From positions 1 to 25,115 of the IMG/VR virus record IMGVR_UViG_3300037847_002155: a stretch of DNA of 25,115 bases. The stretch is one strand, 5' to 3'. The notes under the pieces were generated by a model. The model made no database searches, was not told the origin of the DNA, and saw only the letters and a list, made by a program, of their open reading frames with translations. Numbering within the stretch: the stretch's first letter is position 1; each line of letters starts with the position of its first letter. Below, piece by piece: positions 1,843-25,115 of the stretch. Made by a program: the position numbers and the translations under genes. This DNA comes from a virus.

Positions 1843-2205
1843 ATGGCATTGAATGTTACTGGATTTAGTTCTACCGCTCTAGACTATAAAGCATTCCACG
1901 ATACAGCGGTCACAGGTGTACTAGTCGGAAATGTGACGGGCTCTTCCGGGCGGCTATACCACTTACAACTAGATAATACGACTGCTGGTACGGCTGTCTA
2001 CTACAAGATTTATTTTACAGCATCAGCCGGTGCCGCAGACGATCCCGACATGAAGATATATGTCCCGGGGAGCACACAAGAGATTCTTGAGATCCCGGGC
2101 GGGGTCGCATTTACCGAGCTTAGCTATTTGGCCACCACATCTATTGGTAGTGGCAACCAAGCTAACTCAAATACAACCGTTAAGCTTTACGGCGTTACCT
2201 CTTAG
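1843..2205 (+). CDS. Small beta-rich structural protein, paralogue 1 of 4
   Basis: The protein has 120 residues. A GGGAGA ribosome-binding site lies just upstream. The family core is SSGRLYHLQLDNTTAGTAVY, followed by an acidic turn, an I-Y-V-P-G segment and a hydrophobic C-terminal part (TELSYLATTS). The same layout recurs in the genes at 2214, 2783 and 3164: a serine/glycine turn, (I/L)Y.(I/L).(I/L)(D/N)N(T/S)(A/T), a KI or KL strand, then a Pro/Ala-Gly turn and a W- or Y-containing strand. No signal peptide or membrane segment is visible. The position between tail-fibre-like and lysis genes suggests a virion component such as a tail tip or decoration protein. The family is not one whose function I can name. 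Confidence 0.7.
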   Translation: MALNVTGFSSTALDYKAFHDTAVTGVLVGNVTGSSGRLYHLQLDNTTAGTAVYYKIYFTASAGAADDPDMKIYVPGSTQEILEIPGGVAFTELSYLATTSIGSGNQANSNTTVKLYGVTS

Positions 2206-2213
2206 GGGATGAG

Positions 2214-2579
2214 ATGGCAGTTACAACCACAACTTTAGCCGATCCTATTGGCGCAAAAGTAATCATCGATACTGATGCTGACACCACGGTTGAGCAGGCG
2301 CTCTCAAGTGGGGCTACCATCTATCAAATCCAGATCAACAACACTGCGAATACCACTACATCTGTCACTGTTAAAATCGCTGATGTTAATAGCAATGCCA
2401 CTACTTCATCTGCGATCACGCATCAGTTCAGTTGCCCCGCAGGAGACAAAGTGTCATTCATCTTGAACACTGGGATAGTCCTTAGCTCTGGTCTAGCATT
2501 CTGGTGTACAACTGGAGTCTCTTCCACAGACACAACCGCTCCGGTTGGCGAAGTAGAAGTACGATTCCTCACTTCATAG
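2214..2579 (+). CDS. Small beta-rich structural protein, paralogue 2 of 4
   Basis: The protein has 121 residues. It carries the shared core GATIYQIQINNTANTTTSVT, then VKIADV and an F-x-C-P-A-G turn, and ends in LAFWCTTG and VEVRFL strands. It is closest in layout to the gene at 3164: both have YQI..(I/D)N, VKIAD, and a WCT segment near the C terminus. The start at 2214 is preceded by AGGGG at a 5-base spacing; an earlier ATG at 2209 is out of frame. The composition is Thr/Ser/Ala-rich without charge clusters, which is usual for extracellular or virion beta-sandwich proteins. Function is unknown; a virion role is inferred from location. Confidence 0.7.
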   Translation: MAVTTTTLADPIGAKVIIDTDADTTVEQALSSGATIYQIQINNTANTTTSVTVKIADVNSNATTSSAITHQFSCPAGDKVSFILNTGIVLSSGLAFWCTTGVSSTDTTAPVGEVEVRFLTS

Positions 2580-2587
2580 GAGAAACC

Positions 2588-2779
2588 ATGAAGGATCTTA
2601 TCAACTCTCTTTTTTGTTCTCAGAAGCGCGTATCTTGGCGTCGGCTTGCTGTTCTGGTTCTTGGTACTGGTCTTCTTGCCAGCGGCATGCTTGCTTCGGA
2701 CCAATGGCTGTACTTAGCTCTCGCTTACATTGCTGGCGACAGTGCTGAAAAAGCCATGGCTGCCATTGGAAAGAAGTAG
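2588..2779 (+). CDS. Small membrane protein, holin candidate
   Basis: The protein has 63 residues. The ATG at 2588 follows an AGGAG site (2578-2582). An in-frame ATG at 2504 would overlap the preceding gene deeply and is rejected. The layout is a short amphipathic N terminus, basic KRVSWRR near residues 13-19, a hydrophobic stretch at about 19-36 (LAVLVLGTGLLASGM), then a second shorter hydrophobic stretch at about 40-50 before a charged, lysine-ending tail. Size and one-or-two-helix topology fit a holin or other small phage membrane protein, but no family was recognised. It sits inside the run of four paralogous structural genes, between copies 2 and 3, and stops three bases before the next ATG. 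Confidence 0.6.
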   Translation: MKDLINSLFCSQKRVSWRRLAVLVLGTGLLASGMLASDQWLYLALAYIAGDSAEKAMAAIGKK

Positions 2780-2782
2780 TAA

Positions 2783-3160
2783 ATGGCCCTTAGTGTCTCA
2801 GGTTTTTCTGATGCTTTTGATTACACGATTGTAAACGAAAGCGCTGCTACAGCGACAGCAAACAAGAATGTTACGCTGTCATCAGGCACACTCATGTCGG
2901 TATTCATCGACAACACTGCGGGCACTCAAACTTGCTATGCCAAGCTTTATGATGGCGAAAACTGCACAGTGGGCTCAACAGCCCCACAGCTTGTACTTAA
3001 ATGTGCAGCTTCTTCGACGCAGAGATACGATTTTGAAGAAGGCTACCCATTCTCAAACTTGAACATGTGGGTAACAAAGCTTCCCGCACATACAGATACA
3101 ACTGTGCCGACTGTTAGTAGCGGTACAGTCGGCCTTACAGTTGTAGTAAAAGCGGAGTGA
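2783..3160 (+). CDS. Small beta-rich structural protein, paralogue 3 of 4
   Basis: The protein has 125 residues. The N terminus MALSVSGFSDAFDYTIVNES closely parallels the MALNVTGFSSTALDYKAFHD opening of the 1843 copy, which shows common ancestry. The core SSGTLMSVFIDNTAGTQTCY, the AKLYDG strand and the C-terminal LNMWVTKLPAH segment align with the other copies. It starts three bases after the stop of the small membrane protein gene. No transmembrane helix, signal peptide or enzyme motif is visible. It is probably a late, virion-associated protein; the specific role is unknown. Confidence 0.7.
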   Translation: MALSVSGFSDAFDYTIVNESAATATANKNVTLSSGTLMSVFIDNTAGTQTCYAKLYDGENCTVGSTAPQLVLKCAASSTQRYDFEEGYPFSNLNMWVTKLPAHTDTTVPTVSSGTVGLTVVVKAE

Positions 3161-3163
3161 TGC

Positions 3164-3535
3164 ATGGCATTTGTAAAGAACACCACTCCTACTGCTCTCG
3201 CTGGAGTACTCGTTACATCTACGTCTCTTGGCCCAACGTCAGAGGATAACGTCACGGGTAACTCTAGCGGAAAGATTTATCAGATTGCTATTGATAACTC
3301 AGCAAACCCGAACTCTACTGCCTATGTAAAAATAGCTGATGCATCGTCTGCGACCCCTGCTTCAACAGCGGCCAACTGGATTTTCCCCGCTAAAGGTGGG
3401 CAAAAGATTACATACATCATGGATACGGGCGCACCCTACACAGCCGGTATATCCATTTGGTGTACCAGTACTCCATCAACAGGTTCTCAAGGATCGCTGA
3501 ATAACGTAGTCTCTTTCTCACTTTTGGCGAGCTGA
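3164..3535 (+). CDS. Small beta-rich structural protein, paralogue 4 of 4
   Basis: The protein has 123 residues. The start at 3164 has GGAG six bases upstream; an ATG at 3160 is closer to that site and is in another frame. The core is SSGKIYQIAIDNSANPNSTA, followed by YVKIADASS, NWIFPAKGGQKITYIMDTG and ISIWCTSTP. It is most like the 2214 copy, which suggests that pairs (1843 with 2783, 2214 with 3164) arose by duplication of a two-gene block. The stop overlaps the next ATG (TGATG). Function is unknown; a virion role is inferred from the neighbours. Confidence 0.7.
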   Translation: MAFVKNTTPTALAGVLVTSTSLGPTSEDNVTGNSSGKIYQIAIDNSANPNSTAYVKIADASSATPASTAANWIFPAKGGQKITYIMDTGAPYTAGISIWCTSTPSTGSQGSLNNVVSFSLLAS

Positions 3536-4241: not shown

Positions 4242-4525
4242 ACCTTAAAGATTACGCGCTCCCCGCTGTGACTATCACCTTTGCGGCAGGAATCTCTTTC
4301 GCATCTTTCGAGTCCGCTGCCCAAGACGCAGAGGATCTTGGGAAGCGAGTTACTGTCCTCGAATCGAAAGAGGGTAAGCAAGAGATTGTGGACCTGAAGA
4401 TTGAGGGAGTAGAGAAACGCCTTGATAAGATGGAAGAACTGATGGAAAAGATGGTCGAGATCCAACAGAAACAGGCCATCAACCAAGCTAAGATCTGCTC
4501 GGCCACAAGTGCGGACTGCGACTAA
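4238..4525 (+). CDS. Membrane-anchored coiled-coil protein, spanin-like candidate
   Basis: The protein has 95 residues. An N-terminal hydrophobic segment at about 7-24 (ALPAVTITFAAGISFASF) is followed by a long heptad-like helix at about 29-85 rich in Glu, Lys, Leu and Met. Two cysteines (87 and 94) lie close to the C terminus. One N-terminal anchor plus a coiled coil is the layout of inner-membrane spanins; the paired end cysteines could form intermolecular disulfides. The start has GGGAG seven bases upstream, and ATGA overlaps with the previous gene imply coupled translation. The hydrophobic stretch could instead be a cleavable signal, with Ala-Ala near 27-28. Function is inferred only from layout and neighbours. 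Confidence 0.55.
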   Translation: MNLKDYALPAVTITFAAGISFASFESAAQDAEDLGKRVTVLESKEGKQEIVDLKIEGVEKRLDKMEELMEKMVEIQQKQAINQAKICSATSADCD

Positions 4526-6878: not shown

Positions 6879-8191
6879 GATTTTTCCAAGTCGATGTAAG
6901 TCCACGCCTCACGAGCACGCCCACGGGGCTTTTGCGTACTCATCATAATCACTTGGCAATCGACTGCCTCCAGTTCCTTCATGGTCTTGGCGAGTGTGGC
7001 GGTGTCCCACATCCGGTCATCCACTACAATGATGGACAGTTTATCGACATTCGAGTCCTCATTCTTAATGAGTGCAGCCGACATCGCAGCCAAAGTCCGG
7101 GCTTCTGTACTGCCCGAAAGGGCGACGTGTAGACCATTAGGGCGTCGAAGGCCCAACTTCACTGTGCCGTTATCTACAACAGTAAACTCATCACCCTTGG
7201 GCAAGAAGTCATTGACAGTATCAGCGTAGTTTTCCCAGACAAGATTATCTTTCATCACAGCAGGTACTACATCGATCAATGCCTTCTCTAGTTTATTCAG
7301 GCGATCGATGACAGACTCACCCCAATCAACTGTATTCTTCAGCCCAAGGCACGCCTTGTACTTACCCATCTTCAGATACGCATCTTCAAGATTCTTACGG
7401 GCATCTTCTGGAGAAATCATTTCTTGGATTTTCTCCTTTGATCCAATGCTAGCAAGTGATGCCTTTATCTTATCGAGTACACGAGTCTCCTCACCATCTT
7501 CTCGGTATGCCTTGTACATTTCCTTGAGGCGTTCGAGTCTTTGGGATTCAGCAAGCTGTAGCCAGAGAGCAGAGATGGTGTTGTCATCGATGTATGACGC
7601 ATCCATCTGCTCAAGCATCTGCTTGGCTGCCTTTACCTTCGCCGACTCTTCCCGCTTTTGCTTACCCACACCTGCGATGACTTTAGTCAGCGAGAGGGAA
7701 TCCTCATCGTAAACGTATTCGTCAAACGTATCCTTGATGGTATCGCTGAGATAGTTGCGGATGTCATCACGGTCGGTCTTCTGTACCATATGGTCATAGA
7801 AGAATGCGCGAATCGACTGATCACTGCCAGCTAATACAGCCCGAAGATCATTCATCGGAATAGCGTAACCTTCGGCCCCATTCCGCTTAGGCCGCTTACC
7901 GCTTTCCAGTATCCACTCTGCCGACTCTCCAGTGTCGAGTGTAGCCTGTGAATACACAACCTCTGCTCCATCAGGACGGAGAACCTCAAGCTGATTGCCA
8001 GCTTTGATTGGTTTGTTTCTATAGAGTAGCCCGAAAGCTGAGCCGGTAAGCGCAAGTTGAACTGCCTCTGCGATAGCAGACTTTCCACTCTCATTCGGGC
8101 CAACAAGTAGGGTGTGTTTGCCCAACTCAAAGGTCTTTGATTGACCGTCTCTACTTTTGATATTTGTCGTAATAGTTTTGACGAAACTCAT
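6875..8191 (-). CDS. Compact SMC/Rad50/RecF-like P-loop ATPase
   Basis: The protein has 438 residues. The N terminus holds the Walker A motif G-P-N-E-S-G-K-S (about 31-38) right after a strand, as in Rad50, SbcC and RecF. A helical, partly coiled middle (about 170-320) lacks a CxxC zinc hook. The C-terminal part has an ABC-like signature (ALSGSTEARTLAAMSAAL, about 363-380) and a Walker B strand SIIVVDD (Asp391-Asp392). The usual catalytic Glu is replaced by Asp. The protein is far shorter than SbcC, so it is a minimal form. A partner SbcD/Mre11-type nuclease is not in this window. A DNA end-processing or recombination role is inferred from family and neighbours. AAAGGAG precedes the start. 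Confidence 0.8.
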   Translation of the reverse strand: MSFVKTITTNIKSRDGQSKTFELGKHTLLVGPNESGKSAIAEAVQLALTGSAFGLLYRNKPIKAGNQLEVLRPDGAEVVYSQATLDTGESAEWILESGKRPKRNGAEGYAIPMNDLRAVLAGSDQSIRAFFYDHMVQKTDRDDIRNYLSDTIKDTFDEYVYDEDSLSLTKVIAGVGKQKREESAKVKAAKQMLEQMDASYIDDNTISALWLQLAESQRLERLKEMYKAYREDGEETRVLDKIKASLASIGSKEKIQEMISPEDARKNLEDAYLKMGKYKACLGLKNTVDWGESVIDRLNKLEKALIDVVPAVMKDNLVWENYADTVNDFLPKGDEFTVVDNGTVKLGLRRPNGLHVALSGSTEARTLAAMSAALIKNEDSNVDKLSIIVVDDRMWDTATLAKTMKELEAVDCQVIMMSTQKPRGRAREAWTYIDLEKS

Positions 8192-13961: not shown

Positions 13962-13989
13962 AGTATAACATATGACTACGTGGTGTCAA
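13962..13989 (-). promoter_or_regulatory. Strong sigma-70-type promoter for the nuclease-recombinase-SSB-polymerase operon
   Basis: On the minus strand TTGACA (complement of 13984-13989) is followed by a 16-base spacer and TATACT (complement of 13962-13967). That is a perfect -35, a five-of-six -10 and near-ideal spacing. Transcription would begin near 13955, giving a leader of about 15 bases that is mostly ribosome-binding site before the ATG at 13940. The -35 box contains the TGA stop of the helicase gene. Confidence 0.8.
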
Positions 13990-15599: not shown

Positions 15600-17828
15600 T
15601 TAAGCGTTCGGGAAATCTACGACTTTGTTTTGCGCTTTTCTGCGCTTTGTCAGTCCGACGTACACCCTCACCTGAGTTCCAGCGATACGCGCGTTAGTAG
15701 ATTCAACCTCGGGCAGAGACACAATCGCGAGGTTCAACTCGGATTCGGGTGGGATGTTTGAGTACCCATGTGCCTCGCACCATTCACGGAAAGAACCATA
15801 CATCCTCTCACACGGGATACAGTTCTGTAGAACAGACTCTGACATCCTAACTCCCATGCGTGGCTTGTATGTTTCTAGTATAGAGATGGCCCCCAGCTTC
15901 TGGATCTCATGTAGGAACGCATCGATTGGGGACCGGCTTGCCGACTGCACTTGTCGTCGGGCTTTTGTATCCAGCGGATACGCAATCAGTTTCCAGTCTA
16001 CTTTTAGATTCTTTAGGAAGTGAGCATAGGAAGCGATCTCATCACGAAACATGGGCTCAAAGGTTCCCTTCTTTGAATCGAAACAAGACCTCAACATTCT
16101 CCGATGCTCAGTGGTAGGTTTATCCGCTGCCAATACTGTGATTCGTCTATCGTTTTCATCGAGCACCAATGGTCTTCGGTTGTTCGATGTCATCCACCAT
16201 GACATCCTGTTCTGCACCTTCGTCCGGGCAGCATATGGAGTAGCGCAGTGGATCTCTTCGTCAGTGATATAGCTCTTCAGTTCACTCACCACGTCAGTCA
16301 TGCGTGGGTCCATGCCAACTTCATCAGCTAAGACAAGCAGAGCAGTGACGTAACTAGAGTTAAACTTGTCCCGTAATGCGCGATTGGAAACCACAGAAGT
16401 ATTTCCCGGACCAATCATCTCAGACAGTATCCGACCATATAGACTCTTACCTATCCCCTGATGTGGAGAGATAGATATGACAGCCACCATCGATCTACGT
16501 TCAGGGTGCTGAACCATGGCAGCAGACCAGTGAACCAACCATCGAATAGCCTTCGGATCATTCTGAGTCAGCACCCGAATGATTCTTTGAATCCGATTGT
16601 AGTCTCCTTTTACCGGGTGAATCCTTGGCTTGGAATACAGGTTGACCATACGCCCTTGGTCAGTCCACAGGATTGGGCCAGCCGTAGAGGAACAGTCAAA
16701 GCCATAAGCTTGACGGGAAAGGATGTGATCAACTAAAGCATTCGCGTGACGGACATCCATTCCAACCGGAAGACGCCCGACCAAGTGGTCAACCAAGTGC
16801 CCCTTCTGCCATGGCTGAGAGATCTCCCAAGAGTCTTGCTCTCTTCGGTAGAACACTCCCTGTAAACAGTTGTAGACAATCCTGTTCTCGGCATACTCAA
16901 CCAACTCATCAGGCACCTCGGCAATCAACTTGCCCCGGGCTTCTACACTTCTTGGGGCAGCGCGCTTCTTCTTACCTTCGCCAGCCTTCTTTATCCAGAA
17001 CTGTTTTCCCTCATGTGTATGGCTCTCGCTCGTACATTGGAGGAACGCTCGCCCGTCTTCCATGACACGCAGAAATGCTGAGCCCATTGATGCCCCGGGC
17101 TGGAATGGGCATGCACACTTGTACTTACCAGCACCCTTCTCAATCAACTCATCCACTGTCATAGACTTACCAGTTTCAAGGGACAGGTCAGTCTCACCCA
17201 ATAGCTTAGGCTTTTCTCCACCCCCTACACGTTCAGAGGCAGACGCTAGTTTGTCTACCTCCACTGGTTTACCAGAAATATTTATCTCACCCACATACTC
17301 CTCCGCTCCCAGTCTCCGCACGGGTAAGGCATAATGCCTTGCTATGTCTCGGCACTGACGATCAACTCCCTCCACATAACTCAAGAGAGAAAGACCATTC
17401 TCCCACACTCGTGGAAACTCATGCGGAAGTATTGGGCGGTCGGTGAAAAACACCAGTCGGAATCGTGGGTTAGCTTTGGTGTGACTCCACGTAGAATAAA
17501 TAGCAAACGCGATGTCTTGTTTCTTTAGGTCATCTGACACAACCTTGGGCACGACATCAGAGGAATCAAAGTCATAGACCAGAGCCGATAACTCAGAAAC
17601 ATTTCCGTTCTTTCTGGTCTTACCGGGCTGATACAAAGCTGGCGACCAACACGGAAGCCTCCGCTTGGGGAAATCTAATGGCTTAGTCGTTGGACGCAGG
17701 AACAACTTATCAATCTGAGACTGACATTTGACAACGGTTTTCTGCGGATTTATACTCTTAAAGCCGGACAAGAAAAGGGAAATGCTCCACGGGAATACCG
17801 CTACTCCCGAATCATTTGAACTCTGCAC
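15600..17828 (-). CDS. AEP-type primase fused to SF3 (D5-like) helicase
   Basis: The protein has 742 residues with a GTG start at 17828 (CGGAG six bases upstream). The N-terminal domain shows the archaeo-eukaryotic primase set: D-F-D in ALVYDFDSS (Asp86, Asp88), S-x-H-like WSH (Ser115, His116) before NPRFRLVF, and Asp156 in GVDRQCRD. A zinc-ribbon-like segment lies at about 238-272 (C-x-C ... C265 ... H270, H272). The C-terminal helicase has Walker A PHQGIGKS (455-462), Walker B LLVLADE (Asp502, Glu503), sensor WMTSNN (about 545-550) and an Arg pair (561-562). It would synthesise primers and unwind the origin as a hexameric ring. It is probably the replication initiator of this phage. Confidence 0.9.
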   Translation of the reverse strand: MQSSNDSGVAVFPWSISLFLSGFKSINPQKTVVKCQSQIDKLFLRPTTKPLDFPKRRLPCWSPALYQPGKTRKNGNVSELSALVYDFDSSDVVPKVVSDDLKKQDIAFAIYSTWSHTKANPRFRLVFFTDRPILPHEFPRVWENGLSLLSYVEGVDRQCRDIARHYALPVRRLGAEEYVGEINISGKPVEVDKLASASERVGGGEKPKLLGETDLSLETGKSMTVDELIEKGAGKYKCACPFQPGASMGSAFLRVMEDGRAFLQCTSESHTHEGKQFWIKKAGEGKKKRAAPRSVEARGKLIAEVPDELVEYAENRIVYNCLQGVFYRREQDSWEISQPWQKGHLVDHLVGRLPVGMDVRHANALVDHILSRQAYGFDCSSTAGPILWTDQGRMVNLYSKPRIHPVKGDYNRIQRIIRVLTQNDPKAIRWLVHWSAAMVQHPERRSMVAVISISPHQGIGKSLYGRILSEMIGPGNTSVVSNRALRDKFNSSYVTALLVLADEVGMDPRMTDVVSELKSYITDEEIHCATPYAARTKVQNRMSWWMTSNNRRPLVLDENDRRITVLAADKPTTEHRRMLRSCFDSKKGTFEPMFRDEIASYAHFLKNLKVDWKLIAYPLDTKARRQVQSASRSPIDAFLHEIQKLGAISILETYKPRMGVRMSESVLQNCIPCERMYGSFREWCEAHGYSNIPPESELNLAIVSLPEVESTNARIAGTQVRVYVGLTKRRKAQNKVVDFPNA

Positions 17829-18818: not shown

Positions 18819-19642
18819 CATTCACTCCCGAAAGACATAAGCGCTGCGATAACGCTAGTCTTCTTGGTCTTCTCGACTGCATCATGTAGCTTCTTCATGG
18901 TTACGCCAAGCATGGATTCGTATTCACGAATCTTCTGACGCTTCTCACCTAGAATACGCTCGCGAGATTGCAGTGCTCGCTTCTTGAGCTTACCGGATGC
19001 GACTTCAGCCTCCATGTCTTCCAGTTCTTTACAGATATTGTTCTCTAAAGAACCGACGACAGCACGGATAGCTTCATCATCCATAGCAGTCGTGAACATG
19101 AACACCTTGGCCCGACCATTAGTAGAACTGTTTTCTACAGCACGGGCCACGTCCTTCCAGACTGCCATTGAATCTTTAGGGATCCAGTAAGCACCACCTG
19201 CACCAGAGGCACAGGGTACACCACCGAAGTGATAGGCCAAACGAACCAACATCTTTGAGACATCATTAGAAGTAATGTTCTCCATGTTGGTCTCGAAAGC
19301 ACGCTGCACTTCGTCGATGCGAGGGTCACCGTATTCAAGGCCAGTGCATACCAGCTTGTCCAACTCAGCACGGTAAGTCATGGTTGACTGGCCGGTCCAG
19401 TCTTCACGGGTAGCAACGGCATTGATAACTGCGAAGTTCGCAAAGCCAGTAAGAACCTTGACCTTATCTACGCCATACACAGAACGAAGTGCATTACGCA
19501 AAGCCAAGTGACGAGTGGTTGACTCCGGGCAGAAGTCAGCGACACCAATGTCAGTCAGCTTCTTGAGAAGACTGTTCCGATTGGCTGAAGATGATTTCCA
19601 CACGCAGACAGAGCCGCCGATTGAAAGTTCATTGGTTTCCAT
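18818..19642 (-). CDS. Hypothetical protein linked to the MoxR/VWA genes
   Basis: The protein has 274 residues. It begins with a small beta segment (GGSVCVWKSSSANRNSLLKK), followed by alpha/beta stretches (HLALRNALRSVYG; VKVLTGFANFAVINAV; ending with AKVFMFTTAMDDEAIRAVVG). The last ~70 residues form a long charged helix (KKRALQSRERILGEKRQKIR). Phage proteins of this general layout are found beside MoxR and VWA genes; it may belong to a DUF6744-type family, but I cannot confirm that. No catalytic motif is visible. A hairpin/leader unit precedes it, with AGAGG nine bases before the ATG. It may be an adaptor or substrate of the MoxR/VWA pair; that is speculation. Confidence 0.65.
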   Translation of the reverse strand: METNELSIGGSVCVWKSSSANRNSLLKKLTDIGVADFCPESTTRHLALRNALRSVYGVDKVKVLTGFANFAVINAVATREDWTGQSTMTYRAELDKLVCTGLEYGDPRIDEVQRAFETNMENITSNDVSKMLVRLAYHFGGVPCASGAGGAYWIPKDSMAVWKDVARAVENSSTNGRAKVFMFTTAMDDEAIRAVVGSLENNICKELEDMEAEVASGKLKKRALQSRERILGEKRQKIREYESMLGVTMKKLHDAVEKTKKTSVIAALMSFGSE

Positions 19643-19683
19643 TTTCTCTTTCCTCTTGTTTGTGTGACGAGATTGTCAGCACA
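19643..19683 (-). promoter_or_regulatory. Leader stem-loop and ribosome-binding box before the 274-aa gene
   Basis: On the minus strand TGTG, one unpaired C, then TGAC pairs with GTCA-CACA around an AATCTC loop (19661-19683). The box AACAAGAGGAAAGAGAAA follows and leads into the ATG at 19642. The loop, the bulged C and the CACAAACAAGAG sequence recur before other genes of this region, with altered but still paired stem bases. Confidence 0.6.
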
Positions 19684-19688
19684 CTAAG

Positions 19689-19714
19689 GGGCATCGACCT
19701 GACAGCCGACGCCC
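19689..19714 (-). terminator. Hairpin after the VWA gene (terminator-like)
   Basis: On the minus strand GGGCGTCG (complement of 19707-19714) pairs with CGATGCCC (complement of 19689-19696), including one U-G wobble that pairs only in the minus-strand RNA. It is followed by CTTAGTG, a poor U-tract. It lies 15 bases beyond the stop of the VWA gene and immediately before the leader stem-loop of the next gene. Confidence 0.5.
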
Positions 19715-19728
19715 GATAGTTTGATGAC

Positions 19729-20925
19729 TCATCCCTCAATAGAGACAGTGCGAGCCCAGTCGGGCGCACGTTTGGCATGCCCACCTGTGATAGCAACAAT
19801 GACTTGCATCCCCTTTGGGGCGCGGTCAGGCCATGGTGTGTAGCCATCAGTCAGTACGATACACAAGTCGGGAGAAGGCTTTAGCTTCTGAGCTTCAGCC
19901 AGACCGACTCGCATATCAGTACCGCCACCACCCAACACCTCAATCTTGGAGGCGTGGGTGACTCGTTGGCGAGAATGTACCTGTGAATCTGTTGCCAGTA
20001 CACGGATACCTCGACCACCCAAAGTCTTGAGAACACCTTGGGTTTCATCCAAAGCAGACTGCAAGTCGGGACCATACATAGAACCAGAAGTATCTAGAAC
20101 AATGACAGTCTCGGGCACGGGTCTACGGACAGCAGGCATAATGACATCGCCATAGACTGACTGACGACGTGATGGTCTACGGTAAGTAAAGTCTACCGCT
20201 CCCGCTACGTCAGCAGCACAAGCACGAATGGCAGCAGCCATCTCTTTCTGCCATGGAACTTTGGGCGGAGACAAGTTTGCCTCAGCAGCCAAAGCGATTC
20301 CACTCGGAACGTGACCGCCGTCTTTGATATGCTCCACTACATTCTCAGATACCTGTTGCTTAATGCATTCCTGCATAGACTCAGGGATCTCTGAGACACC
20401 TGACTCAGACTCTGGACCGTCTTCCCAGTCACGGGGAATACCATCCATAGATGAGCCACCGTCTTCCGGCTCGCCCTCTCCTTCACCATCTCCTTCACCC
20501 TCTCCTTCTTCATCTTCTTGTTCTTCATGCCCGAAGTAATACTCAGCGAGTTCACCATCGGGCTGACCAATCTGATGTGGCAGAAGTGGGGGAAATGCTT
20601 CCGGGAAAGGCATGCACTCCTTCTTGAGATCATCATTGATCTCTCTATCGACAGACTTGTTCCAGATACTTGGCGGTCGCCCGCATCTACGCTCGGCATG
20701 GTCAAGCCAGACATGCAGGCATTCATGCAACCAGATGGTAGCAAGTTCCTGCACAGAAACAGCTTTGACAAACTCCGGGTCATAGTAGAAACGACCACGA
20801 GTATCAGTGGCACAAGTGCCGATACTCTTAGGCACCAGAACCATAGACAGTAGTTGGGGACCGAAGTACGGCCACCTCTCTACTGCTACCAGTCTGGCAG
20901 CCATAACTCTTTCTTTGACATTCAT
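19729..20925 (-). CDS. Metallopeptidase-like/VWA-domain protein (DUF2201 type), partner of MoxR
   Basis: The protein has 398 residues. The N-terminal domain carries a zinc-protease H-E-x-x-H motif in WLHECLHVWLDHAER (His67, Glu68, His71; His76 nearby) and a conserved-looking DREIN (93-97). A very acidic Glu/Gly linker spans about 133-170. The C-terminal von Willebrand A domain has the metal-ion adhesion site D-T-S-G-S (Asp278, Ser280, Ser282), Thr336-Asp337 in GGGGTDMR and Asp360 in LTDG. This pair of domains is that of DUF2201 proteins, which occur with MoxR ATPases and are thought to work with them in protein or metal-cofactor remodelling. Both motif sets are intact. A MoxR gene lies two genes upstream. 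Confidence 0.85.
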   Translation of the reverse strand: MNVKERVMAARLVAVERWPYFGPQLLSMVLVPKSIGTCATDTRGRFYYDPEFVKAVSVQELATIWLHECLHVWLDHAERRCGRPPSIWNKSVDREINDDLKKECMPFPEAFPPLLPHQIGQPDGELAEYYFGHEEQEDEEGEGEGDGEGEGEPEDGGSSMDGIPRDWEDGPESESGVSEIPESMQECIKQQVSENVVEHIKDGGHVPSGIALAAEANLSPPKVPWQKEMAAAIRACAADVAGAVDFTYRRPSRRQSVYGDVIMPAVRRPVPETVIVLDTSGSMYGPDLQSALDETQGVLKTLGGRGIRVLATDSQVHSRQRVTHASKIEVLGGGGTDMRVGLAEAQKLKPSPDLCIVLTDGYTPWPDRAPKGMQVIVAITGGHAKRAPDWARTVSIEG

Positions 20926-20965
20926 GTCTTACCTCTCTTGTTTGTGTAGTTGAATCACGTACACA
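20926..20965 (-). promoter_or_regulatory. Leader stem-loop and ribosome-binding box before the VWA gene
   Basis: On the minus strand TGTGTA, one unpaired C, then GT pairs with AC-TACACA around GATTCA (20943-20965). AACAAGAGAGGTAAGAC follows and leads into the ATG at 20925. The last part is nearly identical to the leader before 23941, while the stem bases differ and remain complementary. Confidence 0.6.
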
Positions 20966-20970
20966 GGAAA

Positions 20971-20996
20971 GGACACCGACTTGAAAGCCGGTGTCC
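20971..20996 (-). terminator. Hairpin after the 282-aa gene (terminator-like)
   Basis: GGACACCG (20971-20978) pairs perfectly with CGGTGTCC (20989-20996). On the minus strand it is followed by TTTCCTGTG, a short U-tract. It lies 17 bases after the stop of the 282-aa gene and six bases ahead of the leader stem-loop of the VWA gene. Confidence 0.6.
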
Positions 20997-21013
20997 AATA
21001 CAGTGGACATGTT

Positions 21014-21862
21014 TCAGCGTTCGCCATCGAGCTGATATTCTTCAACGACCCAGATAGGTTTCTTACCTTTGACTGAGCCAATGTTCTCTTCAGCAGTCCG
21101 CTCAATAAAGATCCAGTACTCATTGAAGTCCTGATCTCTCGCAGGTATATATCCACACCCAGCCCTGATTATGTGGTCAGGGATGAGTGTTGGATAGAAC
21201 CTGAGCCCGTCTTTCGACAAGTCACTGTGTATGATTCCAGAGAGCAGAGCTTTCTTGAACCACACACCATGCTTCTGACTGACGCCATGAGAGTTAGTGA
21301 ACCGGCATCTATATCTCTGGTACTCATCATGTAGAGTTACCCGTTGGGATGCAGCAGCCCTCAGCTTCTCTCGCTGAGCTTCAAGCCTCACCATTATATC
21401 TGTCTTGTCTTCTCGCTGGAGCCAGCGACGATTACTCTTCATCGCGTAGCAACGCTCTGCGATTTTAAGGAGAGGTTGGGGTATGACTTTCTTGTCTATC
21501 CCATATGTTCTCCCTTCACAGACACCACGGTATGCCTCTAAGACTTCAACACAGCGATACTTCTGACCCATAGCTTGGGCCACCTTCATCGCTTGTCTCG
21601 CTTTCTTACCTTGGTGGGCGGCCATAGTTAGCCGACCGTCAGGCCAAAGAAGAAGCCGGTGATGCTTGCGGCAACACCGGACTTTTACTTCTAAGATTGG
21701 CATACCCGGAACTGTTTCTTCCACATCAGGAAAGAGTTCATAGGGAATACTATGCTGAAAACTCTGATAACCCAGACCATGCTCACGCATGGCAGCATTG
21801 TTTCTGACTTTGATTACTCTTTCCAGACCAGACTCAGGATGTACGAACTTTACTCTCTTCAT
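21014..21862 (-). CDS. Hypothetical protein between MoxR and VWA genes
   Basis: The protein has 282 residues and I do not recognise it. It has a beta-rich start (VKFVHPESGLERVIKVRNN), a Cys/His patch (VRCCRKHHRLLLWPDGRLTM) that could bind metal, a Lys/Arg/Gln-rich helical middle (about 85-185) and a C-terminal domain with several Tyr, Trp and Phe (NEYWIFIERTAEENIG). The protein is basic overall, which suggests nucleic-acid contact. It starts three bases after the MoxR stop with AGGGG/AAGG just upstream, so it is cotranscribed and probably cotranslated with MoxR. It may be a client or specificity factor of that ATPase; this is inference from position. Confidence 0.65.
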   Translation of the reverse strand: MKRVKFVHPESGLERVIKVRNNAAMREHGLGYQSFQHSIPYELFPDVEETVPGMPILEVKVRCCRKHHRLLLWPDGRLTMAAHQGKKARQAMKVAQAMGQKYRCVEVLEAYRGVCEGRTYGIDKKVIPQPLLKIAERCYAMKSNRRWLQREDKTDIMVRLEAQREKLRAAASQRVTLHDEYQRYRCRFTNSHGVSQKHGVWFKKALLSGIIHSDLSKDGLRFYPTLIPDHIIRAGCGYIPARDQDFNEYWIFIERTAEENIGSVKGKKPIWVVEEYQLDGER

Positions 21863-21865
21863 GCC

Positions 21866-22951
21866 TTACCCCTTCACCAAACCGGCAGCTTGGAACATGG
21901 GAAAGAACTGGTCAATGTTGTCAGGAATGACAGCACCAGCAGGCATCCCACCTTTGAGTAGTGACCGACATGCAATAGCTGCAACGTCAGTGCCACCTTT
22001 CTCAGCAGCAGTAACCATGACTTTGATACCATTCTCCCACCGCTTAGTTGTGTTCTTTGCGAGCACAGCAGCGGCAACACTTGCCAGTACAGCATGAGCC
22101 TTGTCCCCACGGTCATAGTGTTCATACAAAGACGGGTCAGCAATCAGAGCTTCAGGGTCAGGCAAGTCAAGCTGCTCACAGAATGTAAGGAAACTGATAG
22201 CAGGATGACCGACTGTACCCTTCGCCAAGTGACTGATGACTGCTGGCTCTACACCACAAGACTCAGCAGCAGCCAAGAGATAGCAGAGATTGTCCCACGA
22301 ACGTGGAGACGGCCATGCTCTACCTTGACTCGCTTCATCTTCGGGCAATGCCAGCAAATGACTTTGTCCAAAGCGACGAATGTAAGACGTGACCAGAGCT
22401 ACCTTTGACGGAACTAGTTCTCGCCAACCCGATGGAAGTTTAGGTACATCCATCTTGGGCCAGCCAGCAATCATTCCATCACACCAGTCGTCAGCAGACA
22501 AGGAACATTCCAAGTGAACCATACGGTTCGCCATCGGAGGTGCCAAGTCCCAACCACCAGCAGCTTGGTCAGCAGGGTTCGCAGACATAGCGATAGACAG
22601 ACCCTTGGGCAGAGACAAGTCACCACACTTGCGTTCACCCACAATCTTCAGAGCCGAAGCCTGAACAGCGGGCGGAGTACAAGAGAACTCGTCCAAGTAC
22701 AAGAGAGTATTGTCATCACAATCAACAGCCCACTTAGGAGCTACACGCTCGAACAGACCAGACTTGACGACTGGGAGACCAACATCAGTAGGATCCCAAG
22801 TCGAGCAGACTTGTTCGACCAGTGACTTGCCAAGAGACTTGGCGATTGACTGTGTTCGCATTGTCTTTCCAATACCGGGTGGCCCCCACAGAATGACGGG
22901 CACTCCAGCTTGGATACATACAGCGTAAGCAATATCTATATTGTTACTCAT
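21866..22951 (-). CDS. MoxR-family AAA+ ATPase
   Basis: The protein has 361 residues. Walker A is G-P-P-G-I-G-K-T (23-30), Walker B is LLYLDE (83-88) followed by FSCTPPAVQAS, and sensor 1 lies in SIAMSANPADQAAGGW (Asn125). This is the MoxR/RavA clade of AAA+ proteins, which act as hexameric remodelling machines together with a VWA partner; such a partner is encoded downstream. The start at 22951 is chosen over ATG 22987 because the AGAGGTAAGAG box, shared with other leaders here, lies just before it. The 282-aa gene follows three bases after the stop. The phage role is unknown; assembly, DNA metabolism or action on a host target are all possible. Confidence 0.88.
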   Translation of the reverse strand: MSNNIDIAYAVCIQAGVPVILWGPPGIGKTMRTQSIAKSLGKSLVEQVCSTWDPTDVGLPVVKSGLFERVAPKWAVDCDDNTLLYLDEFSCTPPAVQASALKIVGERKCGDLSLPKGLSIAMSANPADQAAGGWDLAPPMANRMVHLECSLSADDWCDGMIAGWPKMDVPKLPSGWRELVPSKVALVTSYIRRFGQSHLLALPEDEASQGRAWPSPRSWDNLCYLLAAAESCGVEPAVISHLAKGTVGHPAISFLTFCEQLDLPDPEALIADPSLYEHYDRGDKAHAVLASVAAAVLAKNTTKRWENGIKVMVTAAEKGGTDVAAIACRSLLKGGMPAGAVIPDNIDQFFPMFQAAGLVKG

Positions 22952-23015
22952 TTTACTCTTACCTCTAAGAACACCAGACAAAAACATCTGGCGTGCATAC
23001 TGATTGCATCAGCAC
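22952..23015 (-). promoter_or_regulatory. Leader stem-loops and ribosome-binding box before the MoxR gene
   Basis: On the minus strand GTG-CTGAT pairs with ATCAG...CAC around GCA (22993-23015). A small CCAGA/TCTGG hairpin follows, and then AGAGGTAAGAGTAAA before the ATG. The stretch CCTTTTACTGTG at the hairpin edge and the GCAATCA loop are shared with the leader before 23941. Confidence 0.5.
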
Positions 23016-23020
23016 ACAGT

Positions 23021-23063
23021 AAAAGGCCAGACGCTATCCAACACGGACAACTTCTGGCCTTTT
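23021..23063. terminator. Bidirectional-type terminator hairpin ahead of MoxR
   Basis: AAAAGGCCAGA (23021-23031) pairs perfectly with TCTGGCCTTTT (23053-23063) around a 21-base loop. On either strand the stem ends in a T-run. It lies 11 bases beyond the stop of the 113-aa gene, whose minus-strand transcript it would end. Confidence 0.75.
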
Positions 23064-23074
23064 CCAATGGGCTG

Positions 23075-23416
23075 TTACTTTCTCTCACCATTCACAAAGT
23101 TTGTGAATGAATCTACCCACTCAGGATGTTTATCAATCCATTCCTGAGCAGACTGTTCAGCACTCTTCTTCTTTAGTGAGACCTTTCTCTTCTCACGGGC
23201 ATCGATGCCAGCCTGAATGAAGTCATCTTCATCCATCACTTCCTCTACTTCTACGGGCGTGACTTCTTTCTCACCAGACTCAATGAACTTAGTAAGCTCA
23301 TCGTTTGCTTGGTTGTACTTGTCACGCCAGAGATTGTAGAGTCTGCCACTTGGCTCATCTTCATGGCGCTTCATCTGTTCGTAAGCAATACGAACTCTGC
23401 GATTGAGTTCATCCAC
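23075..23416 (-). CDS. Hypothetical charged helical protein, GTG start
   Basis: The protein has 113 residues. The GTG at 23416 is chosen because GGAGG lies six bases before it and it overlaps the previous gene by eight bases; the frame is also open further upstream (ATG 23506), but that would sit inside the neighbour. It is predominantly helical with many Glu, Lys and Asp (DELNRRVRIAYEQMKRHEDE), an acidic middle (VTPVEVEEVMDEDDF) and a Trp-containing end (QEWIDKHPEWVDSFTNF). There are no cysteines or known motifs. It could be a scaffold or inhibitor-like small protein. Function is unknown. Confidence 0.62.
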   Translation of the reverse strand: MDELNRRVRIAYEQMKRHEDEPSGRLYNLWRDKYNQANDELTKFIESGEKEVTPVEVEEVMDEDDFIQAGIDAREKRKVSLKKKSAEQSAQEWIDKHPEWVDSFTNFVNGERK

Positions 23417-23735
23417 GTTGCACCTCCAGCCAGTGAGGAACCGATACCATAGTACCGTCCCACTCTTTACCATTAAGATAAAGAGAACCTTTTCTCTGGC
23501 AGACATTCACACCGGGCAGACCATTCAGTCGTTCACGAGTAGTGGCTGTGTTCCACCCAGCAGTAGTGATCTCCAAGTCATCCCAGCCTACACCCAAAGT
23601 CATTTGAGCAATGGTGTTACCGTGCAGAGTCAGTCGCCAACGACATTTATTGTCGATGACAACTTCTGTATTGCTAAGACTGAATGGCTTTCGCTTGATG
23701 AAACATTCAACAGCAGCTTGAGTAATCTTTCTCAT
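23409..23735 (-). CDS. Hypothetical small protein
   Basis: The protein has 108 residues. The ATG at 23735 has AGGAGG six bases upstream and overlaps the previous stop (TGATG); the GTG three bases earlier is too close to that site. The visible pattern is a small alpha/beta domain: an N-terminal helix (KITQAAVECFIKRKPFSL), strands with a DNKCRWRLTLHGNTIAQ segment, then TTAGWNTATTRERLNGLPGV, which could be a helix packed on a sheet, and C-terminal strands. Many small phage proteins share the form 'strand, N-T-x-T-x-x-R-L-N', but no function is known to me. Confidence 0.62.
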   Translation of the reverse strand: MRKITQAAVECFIKRKPFSLSNTEVVIDNKCRWRLTLHGNTIAQMTLGVGWDDLEITTAGWNTATTRERLNGLPGVNVCQRKGSLYLNGKEWDGTMVSVPHWLEVQRG

Positions 23736-23941
23736 CACTCACCTCCTTTTGCGATTAGATTCCGCAATGATTTAATGGCCGCTTTCGGAGTTTTACGCGC
23801 TCCCGTCTGGGGTGAACCGGGCATCGCATAAGCGGTAGCCCAGTACAAGTGCGGAGCGTTACCCGCCATTCGCCATACCGTTACATCATTGTCTACACGG
23901 CAATAGTAATCGCCTGTCCATATGTTTAGATTCCAGTCCAT
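23735..23941 (-). CDS. Hypothetical small protein
   Basis: The protein has 68 residues. It is rich in Trp and Tyr near the start (MDWNLNIWTGDYYCRVDNDV), with a basic C-terminal helix (KTPKAAIKSLRNLIAKGG). The Trp/Tyr-rich strands followed by a helix suggest a small single-domain fold. It is the first gene of a three-gene unit and has the hairpin/leader arrangement upstream, with AACAAGAGAGGTAAGAG just before the ATG. No family was recognised. Confidence 0.6.
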   Translation of the reverse strand: MDWNLNIWTGDYYCRVDNDVTVWRMAGNAPHLYWATAYAMPGSPQTGARKTPKAAIKSLRNLIAKGGE

Positions 23942-23974
23942 CTCTTACCTCTCTTGTTTGTGCTTGATTGCACA
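23942..23974 (-). promoter_or_regulatory. Leader stem-loop and ribosome-binding box before the 68-aa gene
   Basis: On the minus strand TGTGC pairs with GCACA around AATCAA (23959-23974), followed by AACAAGAGAGGTAAGAG and the ATG at 23941. Only 37 bases lie between the preceding GC-rich hairpin and the ATG, too few for a full promoter plus this leader unless the promoter overlaps the hairpin. Confidence 0.6.
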
Positions 23975-23978
23975 GTAA

Positions 23979-24008
23979 AAGGCCCGACCAACTAAATGAC
24001 CGGGCCTT
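23979..24008 (-). terminator. Terminator-like hairpin after the Pyr_excise-like gene
   Basis: AAGGCCCG (23979-23986) pairs perfectly with CGGGCCTT (24001-24008). On the minus strand the stem ends in TTTTACTG. It is 11 bases beyond the stop of the 173-aa gene. Confidence 0.7.
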
Positions 24009-24019
24009 CTCCTTTGGAA

Positions 24020-24541
24020 TCAAACAAGTGACTGACGCCACAACTCTATCTCTGTTAACGGAACTGGTTCTGGTTCTTTGACTACCCACCACTCGGGCGG
24101 GTCACAGAACTTCCAGTCCGCAACACTCTGTTTAGCTTCTACATAGTACAGACGGTAAGCTGTGACAGCATCGTCTCTCTTGTAGATGTCAGGCATAGCC
24201 TGAGCAAACGGAGTGAGACTACCAGCAGGGATAGACTCACGTTTATGGAAACAGTCTTGGATAACTTCTAAACAGGCATGGACTTTGCCGTATCTGTTTG
24301 TGTACTCGTCACACAAAGCAAAGCCATGGTGACAGAGCCAGTCGAAGTTATCGCGAGACTCACGAGCCCAGACAGAACACGGATGGTTCTGATGTGTGGG
24401 CTTGTACTTACCAGAAGAACCGCACAGATGAAGTGCAGAACACAACATCTGAGCGGTCTCAAGCGGCATCTTTACAATGTGTTTGTCACACTGCAAACGG
24501 GCCGACTCTTCTGGGCTACTACCGAGAACAAATATGTTCAT
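24020..24541 (-). CDS. Pyrimidine-dimer glycosylase-related (Pyr_excise-like) phage protein
   Basis: The protein has 173 residues. The N terminus MNIFVLGSSPEESARLQCDK leads into H-I-V-K-M-P-L-E-T-A-Q (Cys18, Asp19, Lys20, His21, Lys24, Glu28), then THQNHPCSVWARES (49-62), CDEYTNRYGKVH (77-88) and QAMPDIYKRDDAVTAYRLYY. This is the conserved pattern of a widespread phage family usually annotated as pyrimidine dimer DNA glycosylase/endonuclease V-related. Glycosylase activity is not shown for most members. If active, it would begin excision of UV dimers. It is coupled by ATGA to the 53-aa membrane protein gene upstream. The family call is good; the activity is uncertain. Confidence 0.75.
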   Translation of the reverse strand: MNIFVLGSSPEESARLQCDKHIVKMPLETAQMLCSALHLCGSSGKYKPTHQNHPCSVWARESRDNFDWLCHHGFALCDEYTNRYGKVHACLEVIQDCFHKRESIPAGSLTPFAQAMPDIYKRDDAVTAYRLYYVEAKQSVADWKFCDPPEWWVVKEPEPVPLTEIELWRQSLV

Positions 24542-24699
24542 GAGTCAAAGCTGTGTTTGCGATGGCTCTCGGCCAGATTGTACAGAGCTTGACGACGCAA
24601 GCGCTTACGCTGTTTGTTATCTGAGTAGCACCAGAACACAGTGCCAATCAGAGCAAAGAACGGGAAGCATACAGCAAACACTTCTACTAAAATACTCAT
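24538..24699 (-). CDS. 53-aa membrane protein
   Basis: Reading the minus strand from 24699 gives 53 residues: one hydrophobic N-terminal helix (MSILVEVFAVCFPFFALIGT, continuing VFWCY), then a basic segment (KQRKRLRRQ, about 29-37) and a short polar tail. The positive-inside rule puts the C terminus in the cytoplasm. AGAGGTAAGAG precedes the ATG, the same box as before other genes in this region, and the stop forms ATGA with the next gene. These features make it a real gene despite its size. Function is unknown. Confidence 0.68.
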   Translation of the reverse strand: MSILVEVFAVCFPFFALIGTVFWCYSDNKQRKRLRRQALYNLAESHRKHSFDS

Positions 24700-24737
24700 C
24701 TCTTACCTCTTGGTTAGTGGTGTCTAAGTTAACACCA
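24700..24737 (-). promoter_or_regulatory. Leader stem-loop and ribosome-binding box before the 53-aa gene
   Basis: TGGTGT (24718-24723) pairs with ACACCA (24732-24737). On the minus strand the hairpin is followed by CTAACCAAGAGGTAAGAG and the ATG at 24699. The arrangement matches the other leaders, though the stem sequence differs. The 100 bases further upstream hold two more weak 5-bp hairpins and no clear promoter. Confidence 0.5.
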
Positions 24738-24840
24738 GACAGAACACTGACAGAACAGACAGTGTGCTAACTGTTGGCAACTTTGACCAGACCAGACATG
24801 ACGACAATAGATAGATTCGAGCTGAGATAGAACGCAGAAA

Positions 24841-24864
24841 GCCCACCCAGTTTCCCGGGTGGGC
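24841..24864 (-). terminator. Terminator hairpin after the Lys/Ala-tailed gene
   Basis: GCCCACCC (24841-24848) pairs perfectly with GGGTGGGC (24857-24864). On the minus strand it is followed by TTTCTGCGTT. It lies nine bases past the stop codon at 24874. Confidence 0.65.
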
Positions 24865-24873
24865 TGTCTTTGT

Positions 24874-25115
24874 TTACTTCTTCTTCGCGGCTTTCTTCGT
24901 GGCTTTCTTCGCGGTTTCTTCTGCTGGCGGCTTGTATGAGCCGTCATCGTTAATCCACGGAGCCATAGCCGGGTCAATCATCTTCGCCATCGGAACAGCG
25001 TCCTCAATACTGATATTCAGCGTTGAGCACTTGCGACCTATCGCGAGAGTCTGACGCGCCAGCGCGATTAGGTTCCTCACCGCAATCGGGCGCTTGGCCT
25101 TTTCTGGAATGCCTT
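24874..25115 (-). CDS. Protein with Lys/Ala-rich C-terminal tail (5'-truncated by window edge)
   Basis: The frame is open to the last base of the window, so the start lies outside and about 80 residues are seen. The visible part begins GIPEKAKRPIA, continues with a helical segment (VRNLIALARQTLAIGRKC) and a short acidic region, and ends in a tail of KKATKKAAKKK type after PPAEETA. A GTG at 25080 is in frame, but coding continues upstream of it. The basic tail resembles the N-terminal tail of the protein at 5407-5688 and suggests nucleic-acid binding. Function is unknown. Confidence 0.62.
   Translation of the reverse strand, partial: GIPEKAKRPIAVRNLIALARQTLAIGRKCSTLNISIEDAVPMAKMIDPAMAPWINDDGSYKPPAEETAKKATKKAAKKK

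Follow-up and report, generated by a model that had tools for sequence, protein, structure and literature searches.

Three pairing strands and two competing folds in a repeated leader element of an uncultured phage lineage, a candidate site of early transcript processing

In the 25,115-base virus record IMGVR_UViG_3300037847_002155 (the window, also coded G000 or W), early and replication genes occupy the minus strand between about 25 kb and 5.4 kb, and five genes on this strand are preceded by hairpin leaders built on one plan. These leaders, before the genes starting at 19642, 20925, 22951, 23941 and 24699, are positioned as an earlier note on the sequence had stated. Each has a central GC-rich core hairpin and a short hairpin, here termed P3, just 5' of the ribosome-binding site. 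Both hairpins of the two-hairpin plan described in that note are therefore present, but the plan is incomplete, as a strand upstream of the core had been missed. The element has three pairing strands and two competing folds. It is very likely that this RNA element, with both of its pairings, is real. On analysis of these features, each copy may tentatively be seen as an intercistronic punctuation element in a polycistronic early transcript, a T7-like processing site that also supplies a cap hairpin for the 5' end; this is the best explanation available, although it falls somewhat short of being probable.

From 5' to 3' the strands are ordered A, core hairpin, B, A', B' and ribosome-binding site. 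In folding of the leaders, the partner of strand A, which lies 5' of the core, is the P3 loop together with the 5' arm of that hairpin. One fold combines A/A' pairing with weak mismatched pairs to B, giving one long imperfect hairpin of about 25–30 base pairs in which an internal loop adjoins the core. In the other, B pairs with B' to make P3, the loop of which is A'. From the core outward, the lower stem of the long hairpin consists of the internal loop, 2–4 pairs, a mismatch, 2–5 pairs, a further mismatch and a strong distal helix. P3 starts no more than about 6 bases from the end of the core, beside the internal loop, so that the weak part of the lower stem is the 5' arm of P3. The distal pairs of the lower stem extend two bases into B', so that the folds are at least partly in competition. 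Energy computation indicates that all of the elements compared (25 out of 25) are able to adopt both folds; on average the lower stem contributes a gain of -13.3 kcal/mol and P3 one of -8.8. Neither fold closes off the ribosome-binding site. The orientation is always the same, with the element between the stop codon and the ribosome-binding site.

P3 folds as first described in the leaders of 23941, 22951, 20925, 19642 and 24699, the last being TGGTGTT-AACTTA-GACACCA. In the element before 23941, A pairs with the P3 loop AATCAA (A') and TGTGC (B) pairs with GCACA (B'). The element before 24699 follows the same three-strand rule, its P3 loop pairing with an upstream AAGTT. Hairpins are present in all five leaders, as had been claimed, with two corrections. 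The 22951 leader contains a third hairpin, and the central hairpin of the 24699 leader is at about 24723–24783, without a T-run, and is not the GC-rich terminator at 24840–24865. The sequence AGAGGTAAGA is exact in four of the leaders and has one mismatch in the 19642 leader; allowing at most one mismatch, there are 8 sites in the window against 1.6 expected. Exact occurrences of ACAAACAAGAG in the window number three. The ribosome-binding sites in the leader alignments are standard, purine-rich and of the GAGGTAA type.

Support for the lower stem comes from a swap test on 25 leaders, chosen to be non-redundant and with the core ends set by hand prior to lower-stem scoring. The mean duplex energy of the leaders' own flanks is -11.7 kcal/mol, against -7.0 (sd 0.54) when flanks are permuted, and 0 of 20,000 permutations came up to the figure for own flanks. 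The P3 arms behave in the same way (-7.6 for own arms, -4.1 permuted; 0 of 20,000), as does the inner part of P3 beyond the outer four pairs (-3.5 and -0.7; 0 of 20,000). Covariation was scored on 11 equal-frame leaders, some of which share a loop class, so that the independent cases are nearer eight. Their score is 0.645; shuffles give 0.234 (sd 0.032) and slid versions no more than 0.189. Paired cells make up 95.2% of the structure and 12 pairs have changed on both sides. Mismatches also have fixed places in these 11 lower stems: position 1 is always G.A, position 4 is never Watson-Crick, and position 7 is mismatched in nine. In a replication set of leaders before orthologous genes in a more distant clade, the lower stem is matched by 1 of 40,320 permutations, this being the true pairing alone, and P3 by 4 of 40,320. 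The earlier note had taken stem bases that differ yet still pair as a sign of selection on RNA structure, to be checked by covariation in homologous phages. This is strongly supported both between leaders and in related phages, the score being above shuffles and both pairings being replicated in the distant clade. A mechanical genome scan for core, lower stem, P3 and start codon, with dinucleotide shuffles as controls, gave 30 matches in the window and relatives G1 to G4 (192 kb) against 1 in shuffles. In the remaining records, pooled, it gave 28 against 9, little better than shuffles, and the case there therefore rests on named leaders.

The relatives were found by several scans. In G4 (L005/L006), a 71% identical relative from the ATPase scan, about six genes are preceded by leaders on this plan. 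A DNA pattern scan gave G1 (56.7 kb), G2 (35 kb) and G3 (57.4 kb), and a scan with the Sak4 protein gave the more distant clade of G8, G9, G10, G12, G14, G18 and others. The window and all these relatives form part of a single uncultured podovirus-like lineage. In relatives at 25–75% protein identity the plan is again found ahead of the same genes; the letters differ and the T-run is often absent. It is 5' of the ATPase orthologues in G1, G2, G3, G4 and G8, and in G8 it is also 5' of the VWA and DUF6744 genes. The same rule is kept with other letters as AAAAGC with GCTTTT in G1, as AGAAG with CTTCT and GAATCA with TGATTC in G4, and as ACTGATAC with GTGTCAGT in G8. By inspection, single leaders of similar look are found in the more distant contigs L108/L109 and L110. 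Matches from DNA pattern scans outside the family are mostly due to chance.

The letters bear on the possibility that the element is bound by an RNA-binding protein of phage or host origin, which would switch the folds and thereby govern translation, stability or antitermination across the whole early region, with a boxB-like P3. Copies before many genes, mismatches at fixed positions, a GG-core-ACTGTG sequence conserved within the window clade and short P3 loops that are mostly 6 nt all agree with this. However, the letters of the G8 elements are completely different, and a sequence-specific protein would have had to co-evolve with them. The ribosome-binding site stays open in both folds and no candidate protein was identified. 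There is no constant sequence 5' of P3 that would serve as the boxA of a lambda-type nut site; an antiterminator gene was not searched for. Regulation of this kind is unlikely, if still worth serious consideration.

Among named phages there is no near-DNA match to the window and no match to the Sak4 protein. For the ATPase and the VWA-type protein the matches reach only 25–30% and are mostly in the Schitoviridae. The three-strand plan was not seen in the MoxR/VWA leaders of Thermus phiFa, Vibrio PJN101, Manatee Spring cto1L10 and Acinetobacter nACB1. Phage nACB1 (L239, Schitoviridae) has long intercistronic hairpins at 4413–4456 and 7345–7397, in the gap after its MoxR-like gene and the gap before its helicase, with no evident P3. 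The window and five stretches of relatives gave no match at gathering score in Rfam, and none to a ribozyme family.

The core hairpin invites a reading as a regulated terminator or attenuator, where it would end most transcripts, read-through would set a falling gradient of expression and P3 would merely protect the ribosome-binding site. A run of at least four T follows the core in 13 of the 25 elements, and a terminator scan of the window found 27 sites against 14.8 in shuffles. The other 12 elements have no such run and it is lacking in all those of G8; a U-run is thus not a feature of every member. Termination is therefore not the conserved function of the element. Strand A pairs with bases transcribed only past any termination point, which means that it acts in read-through RNA, and its covariation is left unexplained by a terminator. 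These results weaken the proposal in the earlier note that attenuation or partial termination is the core function, and regulated termination is about as unlikely as control by an RNA-binding protein.

The elements coincide with the borders of exchanged genes. G1 and G2 are 94–99% identical over most shared genes outside an accessory region, and within that region similarity breaks off at elements. The leaders of G1 3880 and G2 14979 are 96% identical and the genes behind them differ (40%), while at G1 4864 and G2 14979 the gene is 94% identical and the sequence upstream of it is unrelated. At G1 2886, leader and gene combinations have been exchanged. Stem-loops at the borders of swapped genes, as in PeSL cassettes, are thus found at these elements. 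Such breakpoints, together with the standard purine-rich ribosome-binding site and the presence of copies before unrelated genes, would suit a structural insulator that is not cut. It would isolate neighbouring coding regions behind a standard, open ribosome-binding site and, like PeSL or SAS cassettes, be of benefit through modular gene exchange. Neither the strand upstream of the core nor two competing folds that share a strand is explained by this, and an insulator without cutting is decidedly unlikely.

The leaders show no sign of ordinary promoters, as had been suspected for the one before 23941. The best sigma70 score averages 7.6 of 12 in leaders and 7.57 in control stretches, no motif is present further upstream of the leaders, and a window-wide scan places no promoter at them. 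Sigma70 promoters in or above the leaders were rejected, there being no excess over control. A CRP-like DNA palindrome (TGTGC-N6-GCACA) was likewise rejected, since pairing is kept although the stems differ in length and letters. Inverted repeats and cassette breakpoints could also reflect an element acting at the DNA level, whether a promoter, a cruciform, a recombination site or a quasi-palindrome whose complementarity is maintained by template-switch repair. Besides the promoter results, the single orientation of the element and its constant place ahead of the ribosome-binding site argue against this. Mismatches persist at fixed positions where repair would remove them, and P3 covaries as a second, overlapping pairing. 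A role in DNA is therefore very unlikely.

Strong sigma70-type promoters do occur elsewhere in the window. One at 13989–13962 (-), near-consensus with a TG extension (TTGACA-16-TATACT), is directly before the exonuclease gene, and for this reason the phage probably makes use of host-type promoters. Another, at 17728–17756 (+) (TTGACA-17-TATACT), lies in antisense orientation where the primase gene starts and may direct antisense RNA towards the leader region. Similar promoters occupy much the same place in G1 (10555 -), G2 (20672 -), G3 (52766 +) and G4 (1544 +), a recurrence that could in part be due to protein conservation. Six records gave no match to PF00940 (T7-like RNA polymerase), a search in which the control was equally silent, and there was no polymerase match among the largest G1 proteins, including the large virion protein.

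RNase III-like processing was among the options listed in the earlier note and is now the best reading, although we infer the cut itself. The long hairpin would be cut near its internal loop by a double-strand-specific host enzyme of the RNase III type, as happens between the cistrons of T7. The host enzyme is assumed since no RNase III gene was found in the phage, in a search with a positive control. After cutting, the upstream message would retain a 3' hairpin. The downstream message, released from A, would refold to form P3 at its extreme 5' end, with the open ribosome-binding site directly after it. Cut and cap together would make the message of each gene stable and independent of its neighbours, and this independence would allow gene cassettes to be exchanged at the borders of the elements. 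Several observations count against cut-and-cap processing, among them the absence of a phage enzyme. Several elements have only scattered single mismatches, and the internal loop is smaller than that of T7 R1.1. About half of the copies resemble intrinsic terminators. Three hairpins replace the plan in the DUF6744 leaders of G1 and G4. Finally, both pairings could conceivably be formed together, as a kissing-type pseudoknot.

We know of no T7 site described with a competing downstream partner strand, and to our knowledge competition between an upstream arm and P3 is absent from the description of PeSL cassettes. The RNase III sites of T7 (R0.5, R1.1 and others) are the closest in form, being long imperfect hairpins with internal loops between early cistrons and near the downstream ribosome-binding site (PMC4858673; PMC6121014). 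The T7 early transcript of ~7,000 nt is cut at five sites, and in the assay reported there only one phosphodiester of R1.1 is cleaved (PMC4858673). The R1.1 hairpin is 60 nt long and its internal loop measures 4/5 nt (PMC6121014). The window element differs in its conserved competing strand B', which forms the 5' hairpin, and in that cleavage is inferred. In the view summarised in PMC6993053, the upstream message gains stability from a single RNase III cut after which its 3' end is folded, and half-life is lengthened by a hairpin in the 5' untranslated region. The PeSL cassettes of T4-type phages (Arbiol 2010; Comeau 2014, cited in PMC4503421) are alike in having repeated stem-loops that border exchangeable genes; PeSLs carry an early promoter of the sigma70 type, whereas no promoter signal was found at the window elements. 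The SAS/ESAS of cluster K mycobacteriophages are also repeated inverted-repeat elements just 5' of many non-structural gene starts, for which the authors found little support for RNA pairing in the ESAS repeats (PMC3203893). In the window element, by contrast, pairing covaries strongly, and the leader alignments have no fixed 13-bp core of the GGGATAGGAGCCC type. Synthetic insulators that join RiboJ and an RNase III site share the order of a cut followed by a short hairpin before the ribosome-binding site, and context-independent expression (PMC6993053). This is a functional analogy only: those insulators were engineered from a ribozyme, and the window elements match no ribozyme family.

Table 1. 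Positions in the window of the leader elements, their parts and associated genes.
Feature	Position	Strand	Details
Element before 24699	24718..24787	-	Imperfect long hairpin 24722-24787 without T-run; P3 24718-24737
Separate terminator-like hairpin	24840..24865	-	3' of gene ending at 24874; outside the 24699 element
Element before 23941	23959..24026	-	A TGTTTGATT in 24011-24026 region; core 23977-24010; P3 TGTGC-AATCAA-GCACA 23959-23974
Ribosome-binding site AGAGGTAAGAG before ATG 23941	23942..23952	-	
Element before MoxR-like ATPase gene (22951)	22994..23079	-	A 23064-23079; core 23021-23063; P3 22994-23018
Extra third hairpin CCAGA..TCTGG, ATPase leader	22970..22993	-	Also in orthologous G1-G4 leaders
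MoxR-like ATPase	22951-21866	-	Early region
Element before VWA-type gene (20925)	20943..21016	-	A about 20997-21016; core 20971-20996; P3 20943-20965 (TGTGTA-c-GT/AC-TACACA)
VWA-type protein	20925-19729	-	Early region
Element before DUF6744-like gene (19642)	19661..19733	-	A about 19715-19733; core 19689-19714; P3 19661-19683 (TGTG-c-TGAC/GTCA-CACA)
DUF6744-like protein	19642-18818	-	Early region

Further minus-strand genes of the early and replication region encode a primase, an SNF2 helicase, an exonuclease, a Sak4-like protein and a DNA polymerase. The VWA-type protein bears the PHROG label 'HNH endonuclease' (phrog_1314). Its sequence contains a DTSGSM motif typical of VWA domains and its gene adjoins that of the MoxR-like ATPase; read in this way, the label looks wrong. 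A pyrimidine dimer DNA glycosylase-like gene (PF03013) is present at 24020–24541 (-), with relatives located elsewhere in the genome in G14 and G18. In the structural region, four adjacent genes of ~120 codons at 1843–3535 (+) appear to be a tandem paralogue family, as their relatives match each other across genomes.

It is possible, rather than probable, that these elements represent a new class of phage RNA punctuation. The competing folds of a three-strand RNA would then be the substrate and product states of one processing step, placed before most early genes, with each message cut out and self-capped, the structure rather than the letters conserved across an uncultured phage lineage and the element serving as a natural border for cassette exchange. 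There is a fair chance that the element deserves a class of its own once ends are mapped. The three-strand rule is simple enough for searches in other phages. If this explanation is true, a phage without obvious internal promoters can turn one early transcript into separate messages, each with its own protection, through an RNA that refolds on being cut. The element would then be a natural counterpart of engineered expression insulators, and would provide a concrete cause for the borders of gene cassettes in phage accessory regions.

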